From assembly GCA_000720995.1 (NCBI GenBank), contig JOEL01000036.1, positions 62,001-126,000 of the forward strand: 64,000 nucleotides of DNA, written 5' to 3'. Shown here in pieces: positions 17,413-53,881 of this stretch. Position 1 is the stretch's first letter. Each line of letters opens with the position of its first letter. This DNA comes from Streptomyces celluloflavus (GTDB lineage Bacteria > Actinomycetota > Actinomycetes > Streptomycetales > Streptomycetaceae). The position numbers and the translations under genes are program-made. The notes beneath the pieces are model-generated. The model made no database searches. It saw only the letters and a list, made by a program, of their open reading frames with translations, and was not told the origin of the DNA.

Positions 17413-17477
17413 AAGGAGACAGTTCCCACCCGCTCACCTGTATCTCTCCGTAACACCCCTTCCATTACAGTGGACAT

Positions 17478-17556
17478 CGGGCTGTAACTGGCGCTGAGGT
17501 GGAGTACCACCGGGGAGCAGCCCGGCCATCATGGTCCGTGCCGTGCGCCTGGGCGA
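17478..17556 (+). promoter_or_regulatory. ZTP (pfl) riboswitch upstream of folD
   Basis: The conserved core GAGGTGGAGTACCACCGGGG is present at 17495-17514. Stem P1 pairs CGGGCTG (17478-17484) with CAGCCCG (17518-17524). The 3' half has GCGCCTGGGC, and its GCGCC can pair with GGCGC near 17490 as the family pseudoknot. The ZTP riboswitch binds ZTP/ZMP, the signal of 10-formyl-THF shortage, and is known to control folate and purine genes including folD. A TACAGT -10-like box at 17466-17471 would start transcription right at the aptamer. This fits genetic ON control when one-carbon units run short. Confidence 0.85.
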
Positions 17557-17582
17557 CTCACGTCGATGCTCAGGAGCACACC

Positions 17583-40731: not shown

Positions 40732-41868
40732 CTACGGCGCGGTCGCCGTCGCCGTGCTCTCCCGGGCCTCCAGATGCGGCAGTTCGCCCTGTACGGTGCG
40801 CAGCGGTCCGCCGTCGAGGACGGCGAGCAGTTCCCGGGCGGCGAGCCGGCCGAAGCCGGCGGTGTCGCGGACCAGGGCGGTCAGCCGGGGGTGGGTGACC
40901 CGGCACAGTGCGGAGTCGTCCCAGGCCACGATCGACAGCCTGCCCGGTACGGGGATACCGCGCCCGGCGGCGACCGAGGCGCCGGCCACGGCCATCACGT
41001 CGTTGTCGTAGATGATCGCCGTGGGCGGTTCGGCCGCGTCGAGGATGTGGCGGGTGACTTCGGCCCCTTCGGCGTCGGAGTAGTCGGTGGTCACCGACCG
41101 GACGTGCCGTTCGTCGAGGCCCCGCAGATCCGCCTCGGCGCGCAGCGAGCGGATCCGGCGTTCGGTGTGGGCGAGCCCCGGCATCCCCGCGACGTGCACG
41201 ATCCGGCGGTGGCCGAGCCCGTAGAGGTGGTCGAGAACGCAGGCCATGGCCCTGGAGTCGTCGGCCCAGACGGTGGAGTGCAGCGGCGGTGCGGCCGCCG
41301 GGTGTGGGACCGGTCCGGTGCCCGCCGCGTCCTGGCCGGCCGGTGCGGCACCCGGTGCACCGAGGCCGGCCGGGCCGCCTACGATGACCGCGGGCAGTCC
41401 GAGGGAGGCGAGCAGTTCCGGCCGCGGATCGTCGCTGCGCGGGTCGACGACGAGGACGCCGTCCACCCGCCGTTCGGCCCACCAGCGCCGGTAGACGGCG
41501 CATTCGGTGTCGAGATCCTCCACCACCTGGAAGAGGAGTGCGATGTTGCGCGCCGAGAGCACTTCCTGGATGCCGGAGACGAGCTGGAGGAAGAAGGACT
41601 CCACGCCCAGCGTGCGGGCGGGGCGGGCGAGCACCAGGCCCGCGCAGCCGGCCCGTTCGCCGGAGAGCGCGCGGGCGGCGCTGTTGGCCTGCCAGCCGAG
41701 TTCCTCCGCGACGCGGCGTACCCGTGCGCGGGTGTCCTGCGAGACGCCGGGCCGGTCGTTGAGCGCGAAGGAGACGGCGCTCTCCGACACCCCGGCGCGG
41801 CGGGCGATGTCCTTGATCGTGGGCCGGCGCGCCGGCTTACGGCGGGCGGCCTCACCGGGCGCTGTCAT
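40732..41868 (-). CDS. LacI-family regulator of the glycan locus
   Basis: A 378-residue LacI/GalR repressor. The N-terminal helix-turn-helix is TIKDIARRAGVSESAVSFAL, with hinge WQANSAARALSG. The periplasmic-binding-like core follows (GLVLARP..., VDGVLVVDPRSDD, IIYDNDVMAVAGASVAAGRG, SIVAWDDSALC). An Ala/Pro/Gly-rich insert near 165-190 is unusual. ATG 41868 follows GAGGAG. It is divergent from the sugar-binding-protein operon, and matching 14-bp palindromes lie upstream of both, so it probably represses both until a glycan-derived sugar binds. Confidence 0.93.
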   Translation of the reverse strand: MTAPGEAARRKPARRPTIKDIARRAGVSESAVSFALNDRPGVSQDTRARVRRVAEELGWQANSAARALSGERAGCAGLVLARPARTLGVESFFLQLVSGIQEVLSARNIALLFQVVEDLDTECAVYRRWWAERRVDGVLVVDPRSDDPRPELLASLGLPAVIVGGPAGLGAPGAAPAGQDAAGTGPVPHPAAAPPLHSTVWADDSRAMACVLDHLYGLGHRRIVHVAGMPGLAHTERRIRSLRAEADLRGLDERHVRSVTTDYSDAEGAEVTRHILDAAEPPTAIIYDNDVMAVAGASVAAGRGIPVPGRLSIVAWDDSALCRVTHPRLTALVRDTAGFGRLAARELLAVLDGGPLRTVQGELPHLEARESTATATAP

Positions 41869-41948
41869 GGCGGGCTCCTCGTGCGGTGGGTCGGACGCGT
41901 CTCGTGCGGGGGATACGGAGGTGCGCGGGACAGCTCCGGAACCGCGAC

Positions 41949-41962
41949 CTAAACCGCATTAG
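41949..41962. promoter_or_regulatory. LacI operator O1 (regulator side)
   Basis: CTAAACCGCATTAG, a 4-bp CTAA/TTAG dyad matching the operon-side site at 12 of 14 or more positions (only the sixth base differs in the shared core CTAAAnCGCATTAG). It lies 80 bp before the LacI start, fitting autoregulation. Confidence 0.7.
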
Positions 41963-42167
41963 TGCGCCCCAGTGTGATCAGCGTCTCGGGGCATGTCAAA
42001 CGATGTGTCAGCATTCCGTGGATCCGGGTCGTCGAAAGATCGCGCATACACGGCATACCGGGGACGAAGCCGCAGGTCACCTGCCCGGCGACCGGCCGGA
42101 AGCCGACAGGTGACCAGCCGGTGACCAATCCGTTACCGATCTCCCGGCAATCGCTCGCAGTCGGCTA

Positions 42168-42196
42168 TTGACACCTACTAAAACGCATTAGTACCG
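42168..42196 (+). promoter_or_regulatory. operon promoter with LacI operator O2
   Basis: TTGACA (42168-42173) is a perfect -35 box. TACTAAAACGCATTAGTA (42176-42193), a dyad with 6-bp arms, fills the space to the -10 region (TAGTAC or AGTACC). The operator core equals O1. A LacI dimer here would exclude RNA polymerase. A weaker half-match CAAAACAATTAG occurs at 42361-42372. The 200-base leader to 42407 has no other clear element. Confidence 0.72.
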
Positions 42197-42407
42197 TCTG
42201 CCGCATCACCCCCCGAGGGCCCGCAGGAAAGGGGCCGTCCCGGTCGGTGACGGGACATGCGCGTCTCATGTTTTCGCCTGTCCCAGCAGGATTCTGACGC
42301 AACGCCGGATCGATCCGGAAGACGTCACGCAGGCATCGGTCGCATCGTCGACGGCTGCCGCAAAACAATTAGACATGGTTCTGGTCCGAGCAAAGGAGCC
42401 CGCCAGC

Positions 42408-43709
42408 ATGCGTATATCCCGTCGAGCAGCTGCCGCCACAGCGGTCCTGGTCACATCGGCACTCGCCCTCACCGCGTGCGGGGCATCGGGCAGCTCGGGC
42501 GGCTCCGACGCCTCGGGCGAGGTGACGGGCAAGGTCGAGGGCCAGGTGACGTTCCAGACCTGGAACCTCAAGGCCAATTTCAAGGATTATTTCGAAGGCG
42601 TCATCGCGGACTTCGAGAAGAAGTATCCGGGCGCCAAGGTGAAGTGGATCGACCAGCCTGCCGAGGGCTACCCGCAGAAGCTGAGCGCCGATGCCGCCGG
42701 CGGTACGCTCCCCGACGTCGTCAATGTGTCGCCGGACCTCGCCTACCCGCTGGCCAAGGCCGGGCTCGCACTCGATCTGGAAAAGGCCGCCGGTAAATAC
42801 CGCGGCGAGTATCTCGACGGGGCCTGGAAGAGCCAGCAGATGCCGGGCATGAAGGGCGTCTACGCCTTCCCCTGGTACCTGAACACCGGCCCGATGTTCT
42901 ACAACAAGGATCTGTTCAAGCAGGCCGGCCTCGACCCGGAGAAGCCGCCGAAGACGTACGACCAGCTCTTCGAGAACGCCATCTCGATGGCGGAGAAGAG
43001 CGACCGCAAGATCGCGATGCTCGCGAGCACCCCGTCGATCGAGGACTTCGGGCGCTACGGCGTGCGGCTGATGAACGACCAGGGCACGGAGTTCACCTTC
43101 AACGAGCTCAAGGGCGTCGAGCTGCTCCAGCACTTCAAGGACCTGTACGAGGCCGGGGCGCTGGACTCCCAGGCGCTCACCGCGCAGGCCGAGTCCGCCG
43201 GGCGCAAGTTCCAGCAGCAGTCCGTGGCCATGAACCCGGGCAGCGCGCTCGACCTGGACAAGTTCAAGAAGGAGGCTCCGAGCCTCTACAAGAACGTCGG
43301 CATCACGGACAACGTCAACAACACCGGCAAGGCCAACATGTATGTGCAGGGCCTGATGGTGAACGCGCAGAGCAAGGTCAAGCCGGCGGCCGTCGCGTTC
43401 GCGCACTTCGTCACCGACAAGGACAACCAGATGTCCTTCGCCAAGAAGGTCACGATCTTCCCGAGCACCAAGGGCTCGCTGGACGACCCGTACTTCACCA
43501 AGGAGGACGGCACCGACGCGACCCGTGTCCGGGTGGCCTCGGCCAAGTCCCTCAAGAACGCGGTGAACTACACGCCGGTGCTGCTCAGTGACCAGATGAA
43601 GACCGTGCTGCGCAACGCCGTTGCCAAGGCCGTACAGGGCAAGCAGTCCCCCAAGGACGCTCTGGACGGCGCCGTCGCCGAGTGTAACCGCCTGCTCAAG
43701 ACAAACTGA
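42408..43709 (+). CDS. sugar ABC transporter solute-binding lipoprotein
   Basis: A 433-residue family 1 extracellular binding protein. The signal peptide ends in lipobox LTAC (Cys24), then a Gly/Ser linker. VTFQTWNLKANFKDYFEGVI, DFEKKYPGAKVKWIDQPAEG, LPDVVNVSPDLAYPLAKAGL and the aromatic-rich VYAFPWYLNTGPMFYNKDLF are typical of oligosaccharide binders. ATG 42408 follows AAAGGAG at 9 bases. First gene of the operon, with two permeases behind it. By context it captures glycan fragments released by the GH85 enzyme. Confidence 0.95.
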   Translation: MRISRRAAAATAVLVTSALALTACGASGSSGGSDASGEVTGKVEGQVTFQTWNLKANFKDYFEGVIADFEKKYPGAKVKWIDQPAEGYPQKLSADAAGGTLPDVVNVSPDLAYPLAKAGLALDLEKAAGKYRGEYLDGAWKSQQMPGMKGVYAFPWYLNTGPMFYNKDLFKQAGLDPEKPPKTYDQLFENAISMAEKSDRKIAMLASTPSIEDFGRYGVRLMNDQGTEFTFNELKGVELLQHFKDLYEAGALDSQALTAQAESAGRKFQQQSVAMNPGSALDLDKFKKEAPSLYKNVGITDNVNNTGKANMYVQGLMVNAQSKVKPAAVAFAHFVTDKDNQMSFAKKVTIFPSTKGSLDDPYFTKEDGTDATRVRVASAKSLKNAVNYTPVLLSDQMKTVLRNAVAKAVQGKQSPKDALDGAVAECNRLLKTN

Positions 43710-43719
43710 GGCACACACC

Positions 43720-44685
43720 GTGAAGACCGATACGACGCCGCGGGGCAAGCCCGCCGCGGTCTCCGGCCCGGCAGGCACCCCGCCGCCGGGCACGGCGAAG
43801 CAACGGATCCGCGGGATCCGTACGCATCTGCCGTCAAGTCCCTGGCTGTTCCTGGCCCCCGGACTGCTGATTGTGGCTGGTTTCAGCCTGTATCCGTTCC
43901 TGAGCACCGTGGTGAGTTCCTTCACCAACGACCGCACCCTCACCAAGGGGGAGTTCGTCGGCGGCGCCAACTACCAGGAACTGATCCATGACGCGATGTT
44001 CTGGACGGGACTGCGTAACAGCCTGCTGTACGTCGTGGGGGCCGTACCGCTGCTGGTGATCCTGCCGCTGCTGCTGGCCATGCTCGTCCAGCGGCACATC
44101 CCCGGGATCACCTTCTTCCGGTCCGCGTTCTACACCCCCGTCGTCGCATCGGTCGTCGTGGTGGGGCTGATCTGGGTCTGGCTGCTGGACGACCGCGGGC
44201 TGATCAACGCGGTGCTGGAAACGGTCGGCTTCGGCAAGGTCGGCTTCCTCAGCGATCCCTGGCTGCTGCTGCTCAGCTCGATAGGAGTCACGGTCTGGAA
44301 GGGCCTCGGCTACTACATGATCATTTACCTGGCGGCGCTCGCCAACGTCCCCAGGGAACTGCACGAGGCGTGCGCGGTGGACGGTGCGGGAGCGTTCCGG
44401 CGCTTCATGACCGTCACCGTGCCCGCGGTGCGCTCCACGATGGTGCTGGTGGCCGCGCTCTCGTCGGTCGGTGCCTTCAAGGTGTTCTCCGAGGTCTATC
44501 TGATGGCGGGGCCGTCCGGCGGCCCCGCCGGCGAGGACACCACCCTGGTGATGCTCGTCCAGCAGGTCGGCACGGGCCTCAGCGGCCGGGTCGGCTACGC
44601 CTCGGCGCTGTCCGTGGTGGTCTTCATCATCACGCTCGGCCTGATGCTTCTGGTGATGCGTGCCAACCGCAAGGAGGACGCATGA
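43720..44685 (+). CDS. sugar ABC transporter permease (MalF type)
   Basis: A 321-residue inner-membrane permease with six transmembrane segments. The EAA loop, which docks the ATPase, is HEACAVDGAGAFRRFMTVTV. GTG 43720 follows GAGG, 10 bases after the binding-protein stop. The stop overlaps the next ATG (ATGA), so translation is coupled. No ATPase gene is in the cluster; in Streptomyces such CUT1 systems share the MsiK ATPase. Confidence 0.95.
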   Translation: MKTDTTPRGKPAAVSGPAGTPPPGTAKQRIRGIRTHLPSSPWLFLAPGLLIVAGFSLYPFLSTVVSSFTNDRTLTKGEFVGGANYQELIHDAMFWTGLRNSLLYVVGAVPLLVILPLLLAMLVQRHIPGITFFRSAFYTPVVASVVVVGLIWVWLLDDRGLINAVLETVGFGKVGFLSDPWLLLLSSIGVTVWKGLGYYMIIYLAALANVPRELHEACAVDGAGAFRRFMTVTVPAVRSTMVLVAALSSVGAFKVFSEVYLMAGPSGGPAGEDTTLVMLVQQVGTGLSGRVGYASALSVVVFIITLGLMLLVMRANRKEDA

Positions 44686-45632
44686 GTGTCACGACCGAGC
44701 AGGAGCCGCGGACCGCGCCGCAGGGCGGTCGCGGACGCGGACCGGCGCACGGGACGCGGCGCAAGGGCAAGAAGCAGCGCGGGGACCGTGAGCAAGATCA
44801 GGGCCGCCGGATGCCGACGTGGCAGCTGGTGCTGCGCTACGTCCTGCTGCTCGCCGTGCTGGCGCTGACCGTCGGGCCCTTCCTGTGGCAGCTGTCCACC
44901 TCGCTCAAGGGTCCCGGCGAGGACATCTACAGCTATCCGCCGAGCCTGATCCCGCACGACCCCACCCTGAAGAGCTACGGCGAGGTCGCGAAGATCATCC
45001 CGGTCTGGGACTTCGCACTGAATTCCCTCAAGGTCGCCACCGCGAACGTGCTCACCAACTGCGTGGGCGCGGCGCTGGCGGGCTACGCCCTGGCCCGGAT
45101 GCGCTTCCGGGGCCGCAAGACCGCGATGGTCGTCTTCATGATGGCGATGCTGGTGCCGGTCGAGAGCATCATGATCGCCCAGTTCGTGACGATGCGGGAC
45201 ATCCAGCTCAACAACACCCTCATCGGCGTGCTGCTGCCCGGCTGTATCGGGGCGATGAACGTCCTGCTGATGCGCAACGCGTTCGCGGGGCTGCCGTACG
45301 AGGTCGAGGAAGCCGCGTTCGTCGACGGTGCCAACGCCTGGCAGCGCTTCACCCGGATCGCGCTGCCGTCGGTCAAGGGCACCCTCGCGGTCGTCGCGAT
45401 CTTCTCCTTCATGGGGGCCTGGGACGACTTCCTGTGGCCGCTGATCGTGCTGAGCGACCAGTCGAACTTCACCCTGACCATCGGGCTGAACTTCCTGCAC
45501 GGCACGTTCGCGGACAACCAGCGGCTGGTCGCGGCCGGCACCATCATCGCGGTGCTCCCGCTGATCGTGATGTTCGCCTGCCTCCAGCGCTACTTCTTCC
45601 GCGGCGTCGGCGAAGGAGCCGTCAAGGGCTGA
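44682..45632 (+). CDS. sugar ABC transporter permease (MalG type)
   Basis: A 316-residue permease with six transmembrane segments and EAA loop VEEAAFVDGANAWQRFTRIA. The first 40 residues are a basic cytoplasmic extension (RRKGKKQRGDREQDQGRR), longer than usual. ATG 44682 overlaps the stop of the first permease. A GC-rich hairpin follows its stop before the hydrolase genes. Confidence 0.95.
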   Translation: MSVTTEQEPRTAPQGGRGRGPAHGTRRKGKKQRGDREQDQGRRMPTWQLVLRYVLLLAVLALTVGPFLWQLSTSLKGPGEDIYSYPPSLIPHDPTLKSYGEVAKIIPVWDFALNSLKVATANVLTNCVGAALAGYALARMRFRGRKTAMVVFMMAMLVPVESIMIAQFVTMRDIQLNNTLIGVLLPGCIGAMNVLLMRNAFAGLPYEVEEAAFVDGANAWQRFTRIALPSVKGTLAVVAIFSFMGAWDDFLWPLIVLSDQSNFTLTIGLNFLHGTFADNQRLVAAGTIIAVLPLIVMFACLQRYFFRGVGEGAVKG

Positions 45633-45634
45633 CC

Positions 45635-45662
45635 GGTGTGCCCCGTACCACCGGGGCACACC
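45635..45662 (+). terminator. intra-operon hairpin
   Basis: GGTGTGCCCCG (45635-45645) pairs with CGGGGCACACC (45652-45662). It lies two bases after the permease stop and 70 bp before the GH5-like gene. No T-run. It may reduce read-through or protect the transporter mRNA, giving more transporter than hydrolase message. Confidence 0.6.
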
Positions 45663-45732
45663 TCCGTCCGTTCACCACCTCACCACCCCGCGGCGCCCGC
45701 ACCGCACCACCCCCGTATTCACAGGAATCTCT

Positions 45733-47001
45733 ATGCCCGTGCAGGACACCGCCCACCGCCCGCTGCGCTTCGGCGCCAACTACACGCCCACCCAGGGGTG
45801 GTTCCACCACTGGCTGGACTTCGACCTGGACGCCGTACGCGCCGACCTCGACTCCATCGCCGCACTCGGTCTGGACCACATCCGGGTCTTCCCGCTCTGG
45901 CCGGTCTTCCAGCCCAACCGCACCCTGATCAGGCCGCGCGCCGTGGAGCAGCTGGTGCAGCTGGCGGACGCCGCCGCCGAGCGCGGACTCGACGTCAACG
46001 TCGACGGGCTCCAGGGCCATCTGTCGAGCTTCGACTTCCTGCCCGCCTGGACGCAGACCTGGCACCGCCGCAACATCTTCAGCGACCCCGAGGTGCTCTC
46101 CGGCCAGGAGGAGTACCTGCGGACGCTGGCCGCCGCGCTGGCCGACCGGCCCAACTTCCTGGGGATGACGCTCGGCAACGAGATCAACCAGTTCTCGGGC
46201 GATCCGCACCCGGACCCCGACCGCATCACCCACGACCAGGCCACGGCCTGGCTGGAGCGGATGCTGGCCGCCTGTGAGCAGGGCGCGCCCGGCCGGATGC
46301 ATCTGCACGCCGAGTACGACGCCGCCTGGTACCTCGACGGCCACCCCTTCACGCCCGCCCAGGCCGCCCGGCAGGGCGCCGTGACGGCCGTGCACTCATG
46401 GGTGTTCAACGGCACCGCGCAGCGGCACGGCACGGACGCGGTCGCCACCGAGCACCACGCCGCATATCTGATCGAGCTGTCCAAGGCATGGGCCGTGGAC
46501 CCGCACCGCCCGGTGTGGCTCCAGGAGGTCGGCGCGCCGGCCCCGCACATCCCCGCGGACCGGGCGGCGCACTTCACCGAGGCGACCGTCGTCAACGCGC
46601 TGGACTGCCCGGACGTCTGGGGCGTCACCTGGTGGTGCTCGCACGACGTGTCCCGGTCGCTGGCGGACTTCCCCGAGCTGGAGTACAGCCTGGGCCTGCT
46701 CACCAATGACCGGGAGGTCAAGCCGGCCGGCCGGGCGATAGCCGCGCTGGTCGAGGAGTGGCGGGGCCGCACTCCCCAGCCGCAGGTGCGCAGCACCGCG
46801 CTGGTGGTCGACGCCGGGGGTGTCGAGGCCGCGGCGCACCGTTCGGTGTGCGCGCCCGGCGGTGCCGTCTTCGAAGCCTGGGCGAAGCTCACCGCCCAGG
46901 GCGCTCGGCCGGCCCTCGTACTGGCCGAGCTCGCCTCCGATGCCGCACATTTGACGGCACGTGGCATCACCGAGGTCTGCACGCCCGACGAGGTCGGCTG
47001 A
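45733..47001 (+). CDS. GH5-like glycosidase (candidate beta-mannosidase)
   Basis: A 422-residue cytoplasmic (no signal peptide) clan A TIM-barrel glycosidase. The acid/base Glu150 is in MTLGNEINQFSGD and the nucleophile Glu265 in VWLQEVGAPAP. RFGANYTPTQGWFHHWLDFD opens the barrel and WGVTWWCSHDVSRSLADFPE is the late active-site strand. The sequence style fits GH5 subfamilies near GH5_18, whose known bifidobacterial and Streptomyces members are beta-mannosidases acting on Man-beta-1,4-GlcNAc; that assignment is inference from pattern and context. ATG 45733 follows AGGA. Confidence 0.85.
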   Translation: MPVQDTAHRPLRFGANYTPTQGWFHHWLDFDLDAVRADLDSIAALGLDHIRVFPLWPVFQPNRTLIRPRAVEQLVQLADAAAERGLDVNVDGLQGHLSSFDFLPAWTQTWHRRNIFSDPEVLSGQEEYLRTLAAALADRPNFLGMTLGNEINQFSGDPHPDPDRITHDQATAWLERMLAACEQGAPGRMHLHAEYDAAWYLDGHPFTPAQAARQGAVTAVHSWVFNGTAQRHGTDAVATEHHAAYLIELSKAWAVDPHRPVWLQEVGAPAPHIPADRAAHFTEATVVNALDCPDVWGVTWWCSHDVSRSLADFPELEYSLGLLTNDREVKPAGRAIAALVEEWRGRTPQPQVRSTALVVDAGGVEAAAHRSVCAPGGAVFEAWAKLTAQGARPALVLAELASDAAHLTARGITEVCTPDEVG

Positions 47002-47026
47002 CCGCCGACCGCCACCGGAGGAGCAC

Positions 47027-49123
47027 ATGATGCACCAGCAGCCGTTCCCGCTGTCCCGCCGCCGTGTGGTGCTGGCCGGGGCGGGTGCCGCGGCCGCCCT
47101 GCTCGGGCCGTCCCTCGGGGGCGGCACGGCGCGGGCCGCGGGCCGGTCCGGGGCCCGCGCGGCGGACTCCTTGCAGCCGTACGCGTCGTACTGGTTCCCC
47201 GACTCGCTGCCGTCCGGTACGCCCGGGGCCGGTATCACCTGGCGGAGCCTGGCCGCGTGGACGCCCGAGGGCGACCGTGACCTGGCGTTCAACACGGCGA
47301 CGGTGCCGCTCGCGGAGCGGTTCACACCGGTCGCGGCGAACACCACGGCGCGGTCGGGGCAGGCCCGGATCAGCGCCCTGGCCGCGTTCGACCACACCGC
47401 GGGCAACCCGTCGCAGGGCTCGGCCACCGCCGACTACTACGCCCCGACCCACTGGGCGTACATCGACGAGCTGATCTTCTGGGGCGGCTCGTCCGGCGAG
47501 GGTCTGGTGCTGGCGCCGAACGCCCCGGTGGTGGATGCCGCGCACCGCAACGGCGTCCCCGTACTGGGCACCGTCTTCCTGCCGCCGGTCGCCTTCGGCG
47601 GCAACTTGCGCTGGACCCGCGACCTGGTGCGCAAGGACGCCGCGGGGCGTTTCCCGCTCGCCGCGAAGCTGGTGGAGGTCGCGACCGCCTACGGTTTCGA
47701 CGGCTGGTTCATCAACGCCGAGACCGACGGCGGGGACGCCGCGCTGGCCGCGGACATGCAGGCGTTCCTGCGGGCGCTGCGGGCCGCGGGCGCCGGTCAC
47801 GGGCTCCGTATCATCTGGTACGACGCGATGAACACGACCGGCCAGGTCGGCTGGCAGGGCGCGCTCAACGCGCGCAATCAGCCGTTCTTCCAGGACGGCT
47901 CCGGGCCGGTCGCCGACTCGATGTTCGTGGACTTCCGCTGGAGTGCGCAGCGGCTGGCCGACTCCGGAAAGCTGGCGGACCAGCTGGGCCGCAGCCGCTA
48001 CGAGTTGTGGGCCGGCGTCGATGTCGAGTCGCGGGGCTGGGACAGCGCCGCCGACTGGGACGCGATCATCCCCACCGGGCGCGATCATGTCGTCTCGTAC
48101 GGTTTCTACCGTCCCGAGTGGACCCTCACCCATCTCCCGGCGGGCCGCACCCCGGGCCAGTTCCACGCCGCGGACGACCGTTTCTGGTCCGGTGAGGGGC
48201 TCGACCCGACCCGGCCGGCCGGTACCGGCGGCGGCTGGCGGGCGCCCGCGGTCACGGTCGCGGACCGTTCGACGGTCACCGCGCTGCCGTTCGCCACCAC
48301 CTTCAACACCGGCCACGGTCTGCGCTGGTACGAGGACGGCGCGGCCACCTCCGACGCACCGTGGAACCATCTCGGCCTCCAGGACCGGCTGCCGCCGCGA
48401 CGCTGGTCGGTGCGGACCACCGGCCGGCGGCCCGCGGTCTCCCTGGACTTCGCCGACGCCTGGCGCGGCGGCAGCAGTCTGCTGGTGGGCGGCGCCCTCG
48501 ACGCCCCGGCCACCGTGGAGCTCTTCCCCACCCGGCTGCCGGTCGGCGCCGGGACGGTCGTCGAGTTCGCGCACCGCGCCGACGCGGCCTCGGGTCCGGT
48601 CACCGTCGAGGTGGCCGTCGCCCTGCACGAGCCGTCGGCGCCGGGCGAGCCCGCCCCGTACACGTATCTGCCCGCCGGGACCGTGGAACCGGGCAGCGGC
48701 TGGCGCACCGCCACCGTGCGGCTCGGCTCCCTGGGCGGCGGCACCCTGCACGCCCTGGGCGTGCGGCTGACCGGCCGCGGCGGCGCCCCGGTGGCCTGGC
48801 GGCTCGGTTCGCTGGCGGTCCGCGAGCCCGCCGGCCGCCCGGCCGCGCCCGGCGGGCTGACCGTCACCGACGCCGCCACCGCGGACGGTACGACGTCGGT
48901 GCGGCTGGCCTGGCGGCGTGCCGCCGGTCCGGTCCGCCACTACGAGCTGCACCGGGTGCTCCCGGACGGCGGCCGCCGCTTCCTGGGCGGCACCTGCGGT
49001 GCGGCCTTCCACGTCCCCGGCCTGAGCCGCGAACGGGGCGAGCCGGCCCTCGTGCTGGAGGTCCGGGCCGTGGACGAACTGTTCGCCGTATCGGAACCGT
49101 CCTCGGTCCGGCACCCGTGGTAG
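47027..49123 (+). CDS. secreted GH85 endo-beta-N-acetylglucosaminidase
   Basis: A 698-residue exported enzyme. The twin-arginine signal SRRRVVLAGAGAAAALLG indicates Tat export. The GH85 barrel covers about 50-380: YASYWFPDSLPSG, WAYIDELIFWGGSSGEGLV, VPVLGTVFLPP and the catalytic YGFDGWFINAETDGG (Asn230, Glu232), then IIWYDAMNTTGQVGWQ. Beta-sandwich modules follow (about 420-600), and a C-terminal fibronectin III-like domain is at about 605-698. The enzyme cuts the chitobiose core of N-linked high-mannose glycans, leaving one GlcNAc on the protein. ATG 47027 follows GGAGGAG at 4-5 bases. Confidence 0.92.
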   Translation: MMHQQPFPLSRRRVVLAGAGAAAALLGPSLGGGTARAAGRSGARAADSLQPYASYWFPDSLPSGTPGAGITWRSLAAWTPEGDRDLAFNTATVPLAERFTPVAANTTARSGQARISALAAFDHTAGNPSQGSATADYYAPTHWAYIDELIFWGGSSGEGLVLAPNAPVVDAAHRNGVPVLGTVFLPPVAFGGNLRWTRDLVRKDAAGRFPLAAKLVEVATAYGFDGWFINAETDGGDAALAADMQAFLRALRAAGAGHGLRIIWYDAMNTTGQVGWQGALNARNQPFFQDGSGPVADSMFVDFRWSAQRLADSGKLADQLGRSRYELWAGVDVESRGWDSAADWDAIIPTGRDHVVSYGFYRPEWTLTHLPAGRTPGQFHAADDRFWSGEGLDPTRPAGTGGGWRAPAVTVADRSTVTALPFATTFNTGHGLRWYEDGAATSDAPWNHLGLQDRLPPRRWSVRTTGRRPAVSLDFADAWRGGSSLLVGGALDAPATVELFPTRLPVGAGTVVEFAHRADAASGPVTVEVAVALHEPSAPGEPAPYTYLPAGTVEPGSGWRTATVRLGSLGGGTLHALGVRLTGRGGAPVAWRLGSLAVREPAGRPAAPGGLTVTDAATADGTTSVRLAWRRAAGPVRHYELHRVLPDGGRRFLGGTCGAAFHVPGLSRERGEPALVLEVRAVDELFAVSEPSSVRHPW

Positions 49124-49186
49124 CCCCGCGCCGCCACCCCTGTCTTTCTCTCCCCACCCTCCCCCGACGCAATGGAGCCACCCCCC

Positions 49187-52100
49187 ATGCATGACGATCG
49201 CGCACTGGTCGAAGCCCGCCTCAAGCGAGTGCTGGACGAGCGCATCCGCCCCGCCCTGTACCCGGACACGGTCCCCCTGGAGGTCGCGGCCTGGGTCGCA
49301 CCGGGCGAACCGGTCCCGATCGCCGAGGGCCTGTCCGCCACGCACACGCCGGTGGCGGTGGGCGACCAGTGGGGCGCGCCGTGGGCGACGACCTGGTTCA
49401 AGGTGCAGGGACAGGTGCCGGCGGAATGGGCCGGCCGTACCGTCGAGGCGGTCCTCGACCTGGGCTTCGACGAGCGGATGCCGGGCTTCCAGTGCGAGGC
49501 GCTGGTCTACACGCCCGACGGCAGCCCGGTGAAGGCCATCAACCCGCGCAACCAGTGGGTCCGGGTGGGCGCGCCGGTGCAGGGCGGCGAGGAGGTCGAA
49601 TGGCACCTGGAGGCCGCCTCGAACCCGGTGATCCTCGATGTCCACCCGTTCCTGCCCACGCAGCTGGGTGACCGGGACACGGCGGGCGACGAGCCGCAGT
49701 ACCGGCTGACGCGGATGGTCCTGGCGGTGTTCGACACCACGGTGTGGGAGCTGATCCAGGACCTGGAGGTGCTCGGCGAGCTGATGGCGGAGCTCCCGGT
49801 GGACAGCCCGCGGCGCTGGGAGGTGCTGCGCGCGGTGGGCCGGTCGCTGGACGCGGTCAACCTCCAGGACGTCAACGGTTCCGCGGAGGCGGCGCGCGAG
49901 GAGCTGCGTGAGGTGCTCGCGACGCCCGCGGCCGCGTCCGCGCACCGGATCAGCGCGGTGGGGCACGCGCACATCGACTCGGCGTGGCTGTGGCCGCTGC
50001 GCGAGACGGTCCGCAAGGTCGCCCGTACGACGTCGAACATGACGGCGCTGCTGGAGGACGAGCCGGACTTCATCTTCACCATGTCGCAGGCGCAGCAGTA
50101 CGCCTGGATCAAGGAGCACCGCCCGGAGGTCTACGCCAAGGTCAAGAAGGCGGTCGCGGAGGGCCGGTTCGTACCGGCCGGCGGGATGTGGGTGGAGTCG
50201 GACACCAACATGCCCGGTTCGGAGGCGATGGCGCGGCAGTTCGTCCACGGCAAGCGCTTCTTCCTGGAGGAGTTCGGCGTCGAGAACGACGAGGCGTGGC
50301 TGCCGGACACCTTCGGCTTCGCCGCGGGGCTGCCGCAGATCATCAAGTCCGCGGGCACCAAGTGGCTGCTGACGCAGAAGATCTCCTGGAGCCAGGTCAA
50401 CTCCTTCCCGCACCACACCTTCCGCTGGGAGGGCATCGACGGCACGCGGATCTTCACCCACTTCCCGCCGGTGGACAGCTACAACTGCCAGATGGCGGGC
50501 AGCGAGATCGCCCATGCCGCGCGGAACTTCAAGGACAAGGGCGTGGCGCGGCACTCGCTGGCGCCGACCGGCTGGGGCGACGGCGGCGGCGGCACGACCC
50601 GCGAGATGATCGCCAAGGCGCGCAGGCTCCGCGATCTGGACGGTTCGCCGGTGGTCGAGTGGGAGAAGCCCGCCGACTTCTTCGCGAAGGCGGAGGCGGA
50701 GTACCCGCAGGCCCCGGTGTGGGTGGGCGAGCTGTACCTGGAGCTGCACCGCGCGACGCTCACCAGCCAGGCGAAGACCAAGCGCGGCAACCGCCGCAGC
50801 GAGCAGCTGCTGCGCGAGGCCGAGCTCTGGGCGGCGACGGCGGCGGTCACGGCCGGACACCCCTACCCGTACGCCGAGTTGGACCGCATCTGGAAGACGG
50901 TGCTGCTGCACCAGTTCCATGACATCCTGCCCGGTTCGTCCATCGCCTGGGTGCACCGCGAGGCGGAGAAGACGTACGCGGCCGTCGCCGCCGAGCTCGA
51001 AGGGATCATCTCGGGGGCGCTGGCCGCGCTGGCCGGCAACGGTGATGCCGAGCTGGTGGTGAACTCGGCGCCGCACACCCGCGGCGGGGTCGCGGCCGGG
51101 GCCCTGGCGGCCGCGGTGGCCGAGGGCACCGAGGTGCGGGCCGAGGAGCGGGCCGGCGGCGGATTCGTCCTCGGCAACGGTCTGCTGCGCGTCGAGGTCG
51201 ACGAGCGCGGGCTGATCGTCTCGGCGTACGACGTGGCGGCCGAGCGCGAGACCGTCGCGCCGGGCGGGGCGGCGAACCTGCTGCAGATCCACCCGGACTT
51301 CCCGAACATGTGGGACGCCTGGGACGTGGACTCCTTCTACCGCAATGTCGTCACGGACCTCACGGAGGCGGACGAGGTGGCGCTCGACGCGGTGTCGCAG
51401 GATGCCGCGACGGTCCGCGTCACCCGTTCCTTCGGGGATTCGCGCGTGGTGCAGAAGCTGACGCTGACGCGCGGCGAGCGCCGGGTGGACATCGACACCG
51501 AGGTCGACTGGCACGAGACCGAGAAGTTCCTCAAGGCCGCGTTCCCGCTGGACGTCCACGCCGAGCGCTACGCCGCGGAGACGCAGTTCGGTCACCTGTA
51601 CCGGCCCACGCACACCAACACCAGCTGGGAGGCGGCCAAGTTCGAGGCGTGCGCGCACCGCTTCGTCCACCTTGAGGAGCCGGGCTGGGGCGTCGCCCTG
51701 GTCAACGACTCGACGTACGGCCATGACGTCACCCGCACCGTGCGGGACGACAGCGACCAGGGCACCACGACGACCGTGCGGCTCTCCCTGCTGCGCGCCC
51801 CGCGCTTCCCCGACCCGGAGACCGACCAGGGGCTGCACCAGTTCCGCTACGCCCTGGTGCCCGGTGCCGCGATCGGTGACGCCGTGCGCGAGGGCCACCG
51901 CATCAACCTCCCCGAGCGCCGGATCACCGGCGGCGGCGCGGCGGCTCCGCTCGTCACAGTCGACAACGACGCGGCGGTCGTCACCGCGGTCAAGCTCGCC
52001 GACGACGCCAGCGGCGAGGTGATCGTCCGTCTGCACGAGGCGCACGGCGGGCGGGCCAAGGCCGCCGTCACCACCGGCTTCGACCTGGCCGGCGCCATCA

Positions 52101-52237
52101 CCACCGATCTGCTGGAGCGTCCGACGGAGGACGGTCCGGCGATCGAGCTGGACGGGAACACCGTCCGGATGGCGCTCCGCCCGTTCCAGATCGTCACCCT
52201 CCGCCTGACCCGGGCGCAGGGCACGACGGCCGGCTAG
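49187..52237 (+). CDS. GH38 alpha-mannosidase
   Basis: A 1016-residue cytoplasmic class II alpha-mannosidase. Zinc ligands His262 and Asp264 are in VGHAHIDSAWLWPLRET, the nucleophile is Asp374 in AWLPDTFGFAAGLPQI and the last zinc His578 is in LHQFHDILPGSS. An N-terminal beta domain (residues 1-250), the helical middle domain and the long C-terminal beta domain to 1016 give the normal family length. I start at ATG 49187, with GGAG 9 bases upstream; the ATG at 49172 overlaps that site. It has no signal peptide and so trims imported mannosides inside the cell. Last gene of the operon, with a strong terminator behind. Confidence 0.95.
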   Translation: MHDDRALVEARLKRVLDERIRPALYPDTVPLEVAAWVAPGEPVPIAEGLSATHTPVAVGDQWGAPWATTWFKVQGQVPAEWAGRTVEAVLDLGFDERMPGFQCEALVYTPDGSPVKAINPRNQWVRVGAPVQGGEEVEWHLEAASNPVILDVHPFLPTQLGDRDTAGDEPQYRLTRMVLAVFDTTVWELIQDLEVLGELMAELPVDSPRRWEVLRAVGRSLDAVNLQDVNGSAEAAREELREVLATPAAASAHRISAVGHAHIDSAWLWPLRETVRKVARTTSNMTALLEDEPDFIFTMSQAQQYAWIKEHRPEVYAKVKKAVAEGRFVPAGGMWVESDTNMPGSEAMARQFVHGKRFFLEEFGVENDEAWLPDTFGFAAGLPQIIKSAGTKWLLTQKISWSQVNSFPHHTFRWEGIDGTRIFTHFPPVDSYNCQMAGSEIAHAARNFKDKGVARHSLAPTGWGDGGGGTTREMIAKARRLRDLDGSPVVEWEKPADFFAKAEAEYPQAPVWVGELYLELHRATLTSQAKTKRGNRRSEQLLREAELWAATAAVTAGHPYPYAELDRIWKTVLLHQFHDILPGSSIAWVHREAEKTYAAVAAELEGIISGALAALAGNGDAELVVNSAPHTRGGVAAGALAAAVAEGTEVRAEERAGGGFVLGNGLLRVEVDERGLIVSAYDVAAERETVAPGGAANLLQIHPDFPNMWDAWDVDSFYRNVVTDLTEADEVALDAVSQDAATVRVTRSFGDSRVVQKLTLTRGERRVDIDTEVDWHETEKFLKAAFPLDVHAERYAAETQFGHLYRPTHTNTSWEAAKFEACAHRFVHLEEPGWGVALVNDSTYGHDVTRTVRDDSDQGTTTTVRLSLLRAPRFPDPETDQGLHQFRYALVPGAAIGDAVREGHRINLPERRITGGGAAAPLVTVDNDAAVVTAVKLADDASGEVIVRLHEAHGGRAKAAVTTGFDLAGAITTDLLERPTEDGPAIELDGNTVRMALRPFQIVTLRLTRAQGTTAG

Positions 52238-52255
52238 TCACCGCACAGCACCGCA

Positions 52256-52300
52256 GCGCAACGCCGCGTCAGGGCAGGATCGCCTGGCGCGGCGTTGCGC
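52256..52300 (+). terminator. terminator of the glycan operon
   Basis: GCGCAACGCCGCG (52256-52268) pairs exactly with CGCGGCGTTGCGC (52288-52300), 18 bases after the mannosidase stop. Confidence 0.88.
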
Positions 52301-52358
52301 ATGCCGGGGCGGGCGCGCCCGCCCCGGGGTCCCGCCCCGCCACCCGGATCCGTCCCGC

Positions 52359-52637
52359 TCACCCGGGGTCCGCCGGGCGCGACCGCGCGTCACGGCAGGC
52401 CCCGCGGCGCGGCCCGGAGCGCCGGGTACGGCCCGGGGCGCGCCCGCGCGGCCGGCCGGGTACCGCCTCGTGGCGCATATCGCGGTCCGGGTCCAGGCCC
52501 AGCATGTCCATCAGCAGAGAGAGATCGTCCGCGTCCCGCGCGCGCCCGGCCAGCGCCTTCCTGGCGAGCCGGCGTTCCTCGTCGCACGGCAGGGGGCGCG
52601 GTGCGGTGTCGTCGGCACTGTGGTGTTCATCGCTCAC
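52359..52637 (-). CDS. hypothetical small protein
   Basis: A 92-residue protein starting at GTG 52637. The first 50 residues look conserved in style: CDEERRLARKALAGRARDAD then DLSLLMDMLGLDPDRD, a helical acidic/basic segment. The C-terminal 40 residues are Arg/Gly/Pro-rich. No ribosome binding site is clear. Similar short helical sequences occur in Streptomyces proteins of unknown function; I cannot name one. Confidence 0.55.
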   Translation of the reverse strand: MSDEHHSADDTAPRPLPCDEERRLARKALAGRARDADDLSLLMDMLGLDPDRDMRHEAVPGRPRGRAPGRTRRSGPRRGACRDARSRPADPG

Positions 52638-52855
52638 CGCTGCATTCTCGGCCGGGCCGTGGCACCGTGCCCGTTGAGCCGGGCGGACGGGGACCCGCGC
52701 GGCCCCGCCGGTGCGCGACCCGGTCCGTACGGGTGACCGCGGCCGGAAGGTACCGGCCCGGTGGCGGAACCACTCCCGGCCCTTTTCCCTCTTTATCGAC
52801 ACGCCGAGCCTTTCTCCACAACGTCCAGCCGATCGCCTCAGCCGCGGAGCCACCG

Positions 52856-53881
52856 TTGAAACCCTCTCTCGCCGCCGCGCTCGCGGTCGCGCTCACCGCT
52901 TCGTGCGCGCTGCTCACCGGCTGTTCCGACACCGGGGACCCGGTCGACTTCAACGCCGGGGGCAAGGGCGAGGGCAGTGCGCAGGCCAAGCCCGTCGACG
53001 ACGACACGCTGATGCCGACCGGCCCCAAGAGCGACTTCCGCATCACGCGGACGCTGGACGACGGCACCCATATCGGCCGGGCCACACTCCAGGGCGCGAA
53101 GTCCGGGGTCACCGGAAGCGTATGGGTCTGGGCCCCGAAGGAATACAACGACCCGAAGTACGCCAAGAGTGGGTTTCCGGTGCTGATAGCCCTGCCGGGC
53201 GGACTGGGCAGCCCGCAGGAAAAGGGCGGCGTCACCAATTACTGGGTCGGCGGCGATATCAAGCTTCAGGAGAACCTCACCAAGTGGACCGAGGAGGGAA
53301 AGAGCCTGCCGTTCATCGTGGTGATGCCCATGCTCAATCCGGACACCATGTATCACGACGGCAGTGACATACCCGGCTCACAGAAAATGGGGACCTGGCT
53401 GACGGAGGACGTCGTCAACCTCGCGAAGGCCAATTTCCGGACCTTCAAGTCCCGCGACGGCTGGGCCTTCATGGGGTCGTCCTCGGGCGGTTTCGCGAGC
53501 CTGAAGTCGGTGCTGAAGTACCCCGATCGGTTCAAGGCGGCGCTGGCCAGCGGCCCGGACATCGTCCCGGACTCGCCGCTGTGGGCGGGGCACCAGCGGG
53601 AGAAGGACGCCAACAACCCGGAGAAGCTGGCCAAGCAGCTGCTGAAGAAGGGCGGCCCGGACGTCTATCTCGCCTTCCAGGCGGGCACGAAGGAGCCGGC
53701 CTCCGTCACCCGCCAGATAAAGAAGTTCCAGCAGACCTACGGCAAGGGTCCGATTCACACCGCACTGCAGGTCGTCCCCGGCGGCCGGCACAATGCCTGG
53801 GACTACCAGAAGGGCATGGAGGCCGGCTCCATCAAGTTCATCAGCGATCATCTGAAGGCACCGGTCCCGAGCTCGTCCTGA
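52856..53881 (+). CDS. esterase-family lipoprotein
   Basis: A 341-residue exported lipoprotein with lipobox LLTGC (Cys23) starting at TTG 52856 after CGGAG. The esterase D/mycolyltransferase-like alpha/beta hydrolase domain has VWVWAPKEYNDPKYAKSGFP, VLIALPGG, FIVVMPMLNPDT, the nucleophile in WAFMGSSSGGFASLKS and the His in VPGGRHNAWDYQKGM. Such proteins hydrolyse esters or transfer acyl groups at the cell surface; Streptomyces lacks mycolates, so the substrate is open. Confidence 0.87.
   Translation: MKPSLAAALAVALTASCALLTGCSDTGDPVDFNAGGKGEGSAQAKPVDDDTLMPTGPKSDFRITRTLDDGTHIGRATLQGAKSGVTGSVWVWAPKEYNDPKYAKSGFPVLIALPGGLGSPQEKGGVTNYWVGGDIKLQENLTKWTEEGKSLPFIVVMPMLNPDTMYHDGSDIPGSQKMGTWLTEDVVNLAKANFRTFKSRDGWAFMGSSSGGFASLKSVLKYPDRFKAALASGPDIVPDSPLWAGHQREKDANNPEKLAKQLLKKGGPDVYLAFQAGTKEPASVTRQIKKFQQTYGKGPIHTALQVVPGGRHNAWDYQKGMEAGSIKFISDHLKAPVPSSS

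Follow-up and report, generated by a model that had tools for sequence, protein, structure and literature searches.

Organization of the locus

A stretch of 64,000 nucleotides of Streptomyces celluloflavus DNA (contig JOEL01000036.1, positions 62,001 to 126,000; here called the window, to which unlabeled coordinates refer) contains seven genes, spanning positions 40732-52237, for a LacI-family regulator and, divergent from it, a six-gene operon on the + strand. The operon encodes, in this order, a substrate-binding protein (SBP), two permeases and glycoside hydrolases of the families GH5, GH85 and GH38, with intergenic gaps of ~10, -4, 100, 25 and 48 bp (Table 1). The genome searched comprises 8.68 Mb in 193 contigs; in what follows, L-numbers label fetched loci or stretches and C-numbers the contigs of this genome (G000). 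An earlier note on this DNA had described the seven genes, together with two operators of the regulator, as one route for the use of N-glycans. All seven genes and both operators were recovered in place by open reading frames, Pfam and PDB searches and an operator scan, and the route holds up by gene content, in that a secreted endo-glycosidase, an importer, an alpha-mannosidase and a beta-mannosidase are encoded together.

Table 1. Genes and sequence elements of the locus (window coordinates).
Feature	Position	Strand	Evidence and remarks
LacI-family regulator, 378 aa	40732..41868	-	Pfam LacI and Peripla_BP_3 above cut-off
Operator O1, CTAAACCGCATTAG	41949..41962	.	80 bp upstream of LacI start; 0 mismatches to consensus of related loci
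Putative operon promoter TTGACA-N18-TACCGT, O2 within spacer	42168..42197	+	Read by eye
Operator O2, CTAAAACGCATTAG	42178..42191	.	0 mismatches
CUT1 substrate-binding lipoprotein (SBP)	~42408..43709	+	Pfam SBP_bac_1 5e-36; lipobox LTAC by eye; start by ribosome-binding site
ABC permease 1	~43720..44685	+	Pfam BPD_transp_1; GTG start at 43720
ABC permease 2	44682..45632	+	Pfam BPD_transp_1
GH5_18 exo-beta-1,4-mannosidase (predicted)	45733..47001	+	PDB matches; no signal peptide seen (by eye)
GH85 endo-beta-N-acetylglucosaminidase	~47027..49123	+	Pfam GH85 1e-80 and GH85_C; Tat-type twin-arginine signal SRRRVVLAG by eye
GH38 alpha-mannosidase	~49172..52237 (start may be 49187)	+	Pfam GH38 N, middle and C domains; no signal peptide seen (by eye)
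Hairpin, likely terminator without T-tract	52251..52307	+	-46.3 kcal/mol, z -6.5; 3' of GH38

Enzymes and transporter encoded by the operon

Searches of Pfam and NCBIfam gave no match for the GH5 protein, and NCBIfam overall returned only names below its cut-off. Against the PDB, the protein is homologous over residues 9-421 to ScGH5_18 (7lr7, E 8e-226), which we take, with its companion entry 7lr8, to be from Streptomyces cattleya. It also matches BlGH5_18 and BlMan5B (2e-111 to 2e-127) and the C. acnes entry 6gvb (4e-116), and the nearest other GH5 entry is the endo-beta-mannanase 7bob, at 2e-19. The protein thus belongs to GH5_18, as had been suggested from the sequence, and a placement outside the beta-mannosidases was not borne out. 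Both catalytic Glu residues are kept in the motifs GNEINQ and WLQEVGAP, aligned to ScGH5_18; they are tied by motif, not by direct alignment, to Glu140 and Glu259, whose catalytic roles were described for the C. acnes enzyme (PMC6160142). The same source confirms C. acnes GH5_18 as an exo-beta-1,4-mannosidase acting on the N-glycan core and counts 51 Streptomyces sequences within the subfamily (PMC6160142). For the Streptomyces protein studied here, hydrolysis of Man-beta-1,4-N-acetylglucosamine (Man-beta-1,4-GlcNAc) is predicted.

The best PDB match of the GH85 protein is 3fha (2e-114), which we take to be Endo-A; Endo D is matched at 4e-74. The stretch GWFINAET of the Streptomyces protein aligns to GWFINQET of 3fha, a FIN.E motif whose Asn and Glu are presumably the catalytic pair. 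The GH38 protein is closest to 7ufs (6e-246), an entry that we assume, like BlGH5_18 and BlMan5B, to be from B. longum.

The SBP and the two permeases are encoded without an ATPase gene in the locus. In Streptomyces, MsiK is the ATPase shared among CUT1 importers, and one UgpC/MsiK-type ATPase gene was found elsewhere in the genome (C10; 457 bits against an NCBIfam cut-off of 432), its product carrying OB_MalK and TOBE_2 domains. No permease was detected beside it among the five of seven open reading frames of that 5-kb stretch that were scanned.

An operator specific for this type of locus

The operator consensus is near-palindromic and CG-centred, CTAAANCGC(A/T)TTAG. Exact copies of CTAAANCGCATTAG occur at only two places in the whole 8.68-Mb genome, O1 and O2, which are therefore not a matter of chance, and the spread of unrelated exact matches that would have spoken against the proposed switch was not seen. 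Within the window alone the signal is weak, a scan at three mismatches giving 6 matches against 2.4 expected, a number reached by 3 of 100 shuffles.

The operator was then surveyed in 150 genomes of the genus, this one included, with the reversed pattern as control. CTAAANCGCATTAG has 64 sites in 55 of the 150 genomes and the reversed control has none. GH85 genes were located in the same genomes (match at E ≤1e-30; 59 genomes), and 39 of the 64 exact sites lie within 10 kb of one of them; the remaining 25 all adjoin tblastn matches to LacI, SBP, permease, GH5 or GH38. GH85 and operator occur together in 43 genomes, GH85 only in 16, operator only in 12 and neither in 79 (Fisher p 9e-14, with relatives treated as independent).

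Related loci were taken as the best 80 of 518 by GH5_18 similarity. LacI is matched above 100 bits in 74 of them, and 72 of these 74 carry the consensus operator, which upholds the earlier proposal of a LacI regulator with matched operators; the other two (L051, L080) have a site with one or two mismatches in the same place. In line with a constant operator, at least 89 of 106 LacI orthologues preserve the helix-turn-helix stretch SESAVSFALN; in some of the 106 the alignment begins only at a later residue. In a class-wide sample of 296 genomes, 11 have an operator site, 7 of them belonging to the same genus, and in all 11 the fetched stretch contains a homologue of LacI, SBP, GH5, GH38 or a long form of GH38 described below, L139 and L140 having only a weaker LacI match. 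Kinship among the loci inflates all of these counts. The operator is strikingly specific for this locus type.

A second GH85 gene as probable target

One further GH85 gene is present in the genome at E ≤1e-30. This gene, GH85b, lies on C1 (L005:1983-4133), is 35% identical and has a Tat-type start by eye. The pattern CTAAANNNNWTTAG is found at three places in the genome, namely O1, O2 and CTAAACCACTTTAG, with none for the reversed control. CTAAACCACTTTAG is located at L005:4318-4331 (G000:C1:194317-194330); it precedes GH85b by 184 bp with the start adopted here and by 124 bp for the longest version of the gene. The locus and GH85b thus probably form a two-place regulon. The earlier note had called the locus self-contained; this description does not stand, since the ATPase gene is absent and a distant GH85 gene has an operator-like site about 185 bp in front of it. 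A GH18 gene is found downstream of GH85b on the same strand.

Promoter overlap and proposed switch

O2 is situated between TTGACA (42168) and TACCGT (42192), within a spacer of 18 bp. For the LacI family, an operator inside a promoter spacer normally means repression, and the position of O2 fits steric repression of the operon, as that of O1 upstream of the LacI start fits autoregulation. A generic promoter scan between LacI and SBP found none. The arrangement recurs in related loci: in 19 of the 74 LacI-bearing loci (window included), TTGAC precedes the last operator at a distance of 10 bp, and TANNNT directly follows this operator in 19 of 19; in 4 further loci TTGAC precedes it at 9 bp, which brings the promoter overlap to 23/74.

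From these observations a scheme can be proposed in which the exported GH85 would cut N-glycans between the two core GlcNAc residues and the CUT1 transporter, energised by the shared MsiK-type ATPase, would bring in the freed Man(n)GlcNAc. GH38 would remove alpha-mannose, after which GH5_18 would cleave the remaining Man-beta-1,4-GlcNAc. The divergent LacI would repress its own gene and the operon via the CTAAANCGC(A/T)TTAG operators, including the one placed between the putative -35 and -10 elements of the operon, and an imported or trimmed fragment would release it from them. Since the genes for uptake and trimming are under the switch, the inducer is likely a transported or partly trimmed glycan fragment. 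The same LacI probably also controls the distant Tat-type GH85b. Altogether, an N-glycan utilization operon under a LacI/operator switch, with GH85b as a probable further target, is in our view a highly probable reading of the locus.

Counter-evidence and alternative explanations

Several findings weigh against this reading, in part or as a whole. The best solved relative of the SBP (PDB 6wpm, 1e-30) is a distant one that does not indicate the ligand. The exact operator is missing from 16 of the 59 genomes with GH85; inspection of all 16 revealed one-mismatch sites in the LacI intergenic region in 11 (e.g., CTGAACCGCATTAG), a LacI of 53% identity with two-mismatch sites in that region in 2, and none in 3. 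TTGACA precedes the operator only in 21 loci of that half of the LacI tree (see below) to which the window belongs and in 2 loci outside the tree. For the class-wide sample, the reversed control gave 15 matches versus 14 rows (13 places) for the pattern, so that the count is uninformative and placement alone counts. In the genome itself, up to two mismatches are found at 6 places versus 19 for the reversed control, and a looser palindromic form with one mismatch at 8 places per strand versus 40 in the control; because controls outnumber the degenerate matches, a single degenerate site counts for little by itself.

The last point concerns GH85b in particular. CTAAACCACTTTAG has two mismatches to the consensus, including the change of the central CG to CA, and the pattern CTAAANNNNWTTAG was loosened after the site had been seen. 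It is also one of four places outside the locus with at most two mismatches (on C1, C69, C4 and C25), and the one on C69, CCAAACCGCATTAG, was rejected as a target on account of its position inside a tRNA-Ser gene. The site could thus be a chance match and the regulon be confined to the locus. Against coincidence stands the low probability, ~3e-5, that a single additional place should fall into a particular 300 bp, although this value was obtained post hoc, as well as the company that GH85b keeps in other genomes. Close relatives of GH85b occur in only 4 other genomes of 295, one inside the operon behind GH38 (L104), one next to GH38 where the contig ends (L116), one that diverges from this LacI across an intergenic stretch with operator-like sites (L117) and one downstream of GH5_18 with this LacI (L080/L110, one genome); a more distant relative (39%) is part of a GH38-SBP-permease-GH5 locus (L137), so that five genomes have such genes in or beside loci of this kind. 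Moreover, a CA-centred site precedes GH85 in L124 and another degenerate site precedes it in L133. A chance match before GH85b is considered unlikely.

A different possibility is that the operon serves another mannose-rich substrate, such as fungal alpha-mannan or mannoprotein fragments, or beta-manno-oligosaccharides, with GH85 as an accessory. All seven genes are matched above 100 bits in 26 of the 80 related loci, one of which (L037) has GH85 only in pieces, and in a further 20, LacI, SBP, permeases, GH5 and GH38 are kept but no intact GH85 is found (19 with no match, L007 with a fragment), which means that GH85 is not obligatory. A paper of 2026 on Streptomyces co-cultured with yeast points in the same direction, since S. 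lavendulae was found to induce GH92 and then intracellular GH38 mannosidases (PMC13170338). The operator, GH5_18 and GH85 are all present in L078, from a different S. lavendulae strain. Neither GH85 nor LacI is mentioned in the paper's main text (PMC13170338), and the link between the yeast-feeding organism and this locus is only suggestive. The N-glycan core activity of C. acnes GH5_18 mentioned above speaks against another substrate, as does the fact that the characterised GH85 enzymes have N-glycans as their sole substrates (PMC10154615). In addition, yeast mannoproteins are themselves N-glycosylated, so that the two views overlap. We regard another primary substrate as quite improbable.

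Lastly, LacI might be an activator or only an autoregulator, the operon being mainly under global carbon or GlcNAc signals, and the GlcNAc regulator DasR of Streptomyces could act on the same genes, but O2 lies inside the spacer of the putative operon promoter, where repression is the rule, and this is the least credible of the alternatives.

Operator layouts and the LacI tree

The spacing of operators was counted in 108 loci, one per identical 134-bp context, each with a site within one mismatch (L106-L115, L116, L122, L074, L093 and L094 excluded). Exactly 24 bp from the main site, 52 of the 108 loci have another operator-like one (up to three mismatches, mostly one), versus a mean of 0.23 loci per offset. 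The partner is on one side in 36 loci and on the other in 16, and a third site at 48 bp exists in 5. Tandems of this type, two or three in a row, are seen in L117-L119, L121, L123, L126-L129, L131, L132, L134-L136 and others.

In a tree of the LacI proteins (matches longer than 300 aa only, 106 in number and reduced to 100 distinct rows), the 24-bp trait is present in one clade with support 98/96, where 48 of the 55 rows show it, and in none of the 43 rows of the other half, which includes the window and whose own fork is weak (90/46). Six changes are needed to explain it, and since the trait is clustered by descent, the independent events are few. At O1 and O2 of the window there are no 24-bp partners, no other site within four mismatches being found at 41901-42300. 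In a different arrangement, the main operator is accompanied, at a distance of 55 or 56 bp, by a degenerate second site, mostly CTGAAGCGCATAAG; this characterizes 19 loci (L020, L026, L035, L038-L040, L047, L051, L054, L056, L062, L063, L065-L067, L069, L072, L078 and L120); those of them present in the tree fall within the half that includes the window, in an S. lavendulae-like group. The operators thus come in three layouts or more.

A broader picture can be drawn tentatively, and as a whole it is somewhat less likely to be right than wrong. In it, a repressor regulon devoted to N-glycans would read glycoprotein-derived sugar and, in this genome, switch on two unlinked Tat-type GH85 genes; its operator would be present in nearly all LacI-bearing loci of this type seen in Streptomyces and in a few other actinobacterial families. 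The repressor would work through phased 24-bp tandems, with two or three dimers next to one another, in one clade, and through a promoter-spacer site or a 55-56-bp pair in the other half.

Additional observations on related loci and the window

Some related loci carry further genes. A long GH38 gene (~1470 aa, with an NPCBM-associated domain) is divergent and adjoins LacI or the operator in L020 and L024 (by Pfam), L105 and L146 (by tblastn) and L009, L029 and L078 (a similar long open reading frame); its listed start looks too early. The genome of the window lacks this partner: the search for it returned nothing but a weak match within the GH38 of the operon. A ROK-family gene, possibly for a mannose or GlcNAc kinase, is directly beside LacI in L026, L092, L120, L130 and L145. 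In the GH5_18-GH85b locus L080:5918-8690, genes for an oligopeptide-type SBP (SBP_bac_5) and a permease come after LacI, which hints at glycopeptide uptake. In L086, L087, L090 and L091 a further SBP/permease set (35-39% SBP identity), divergently oriented, has the same operator and lies away from the GH85 found in those genomes; GH38 is present in all but L091, which is at a contig end.

In the window, a scan for T-tract terminators found none after GH38. Beyond the hairpin, an esterase-like gene (52295-53881; Pfam Esterase) has a lipoprotein-like start by eye, its true start being later than that of the open reading frame. A ZMP/ZTP riboswitch (RF01750, 59.8 bits) is located at 17474-17561.

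Comparison with known systems

By its content, the locus belongs with the N-glycan utilization loci known from B. longum, C. acnes and S. pneumoniae, which it also resembles in its proposed mode of working, and is ordinary in kind. The high-mannose pathway of B. longum (GH38, GH125 and BlMan5B/BlGH5_18) uses ABC uptake, and its cytoplasmic-type GH38 and GH5_18 enzymes are clear homologues of those of the Streptomyces operon. In B. longum, too, an endo-acting enzyme comes first, and three GH38 genes and GH125 are grouped in one operon (PMC10154615), whereas the Streptomyces operon has one GH38, no GH125 and no ATPase gene. The C. acnes locus (CaMan5_18) likewise joins a GH38/GH5_18 pair to SBP, permease and regulator genes, and the activity of its GH5_18 was measured, but it has GH18 and GH20 where Streptomyces has GH85; 'LacI' is absent from the main text of the paper (PMC6160142).

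ScGH5_18, a homologue of the GH5 protein, was compared via its structure entry only, and a literature search yielded no paper on its locus or regulator. Streptomyces also has MsiK-dependent CUT1 systems under LacI-family regulators such as CebR. Like them, this locus combines an SBP and two permeases with a LacI regulator and lacks an ATPase gene; its operator and predicted substrate differ from theirs. The N-glycan genes of S. pneumoniae are EndoD, NgtS/P1/P2 and GH38/GH125, and to our knowledge that system has no GH5_18. The likeness there is in the combination of GH85, importer and GH38 (PMC5215778), and host-glycan metabolism is regulated by a two-component system (PMC7075642). In the open-licence literature, the operator strings were found in no paper, and none was found on a Streptomyces N-glycan regulator.

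The N-glycan foraging systems in the literature surveyed are mostly those of gut, skin and pathogenic bacteria, and the same logic would operate here in a soil Streptomyces. If the broader picture drawn above is true, the switch would be a simple sensor by which these organisms detect eukaryotic, e.g., fungal, glycoprotein, and a repressor/operator pair responding to N-glycan fragments would serve as a biosensor. Across genomes of the genus, the 14-bp operator also serves to locate the regulon. What sets the Streptomyces locus apart from the known ones is a single GH38 with no GH125, GH85 as the endo-enzyme, the lack of an ATPase gene and a LacI switch whose operator is defined; the specificity of that operator, a probable second target and the tandem layout with 24-bp spacing are what it adds to them.

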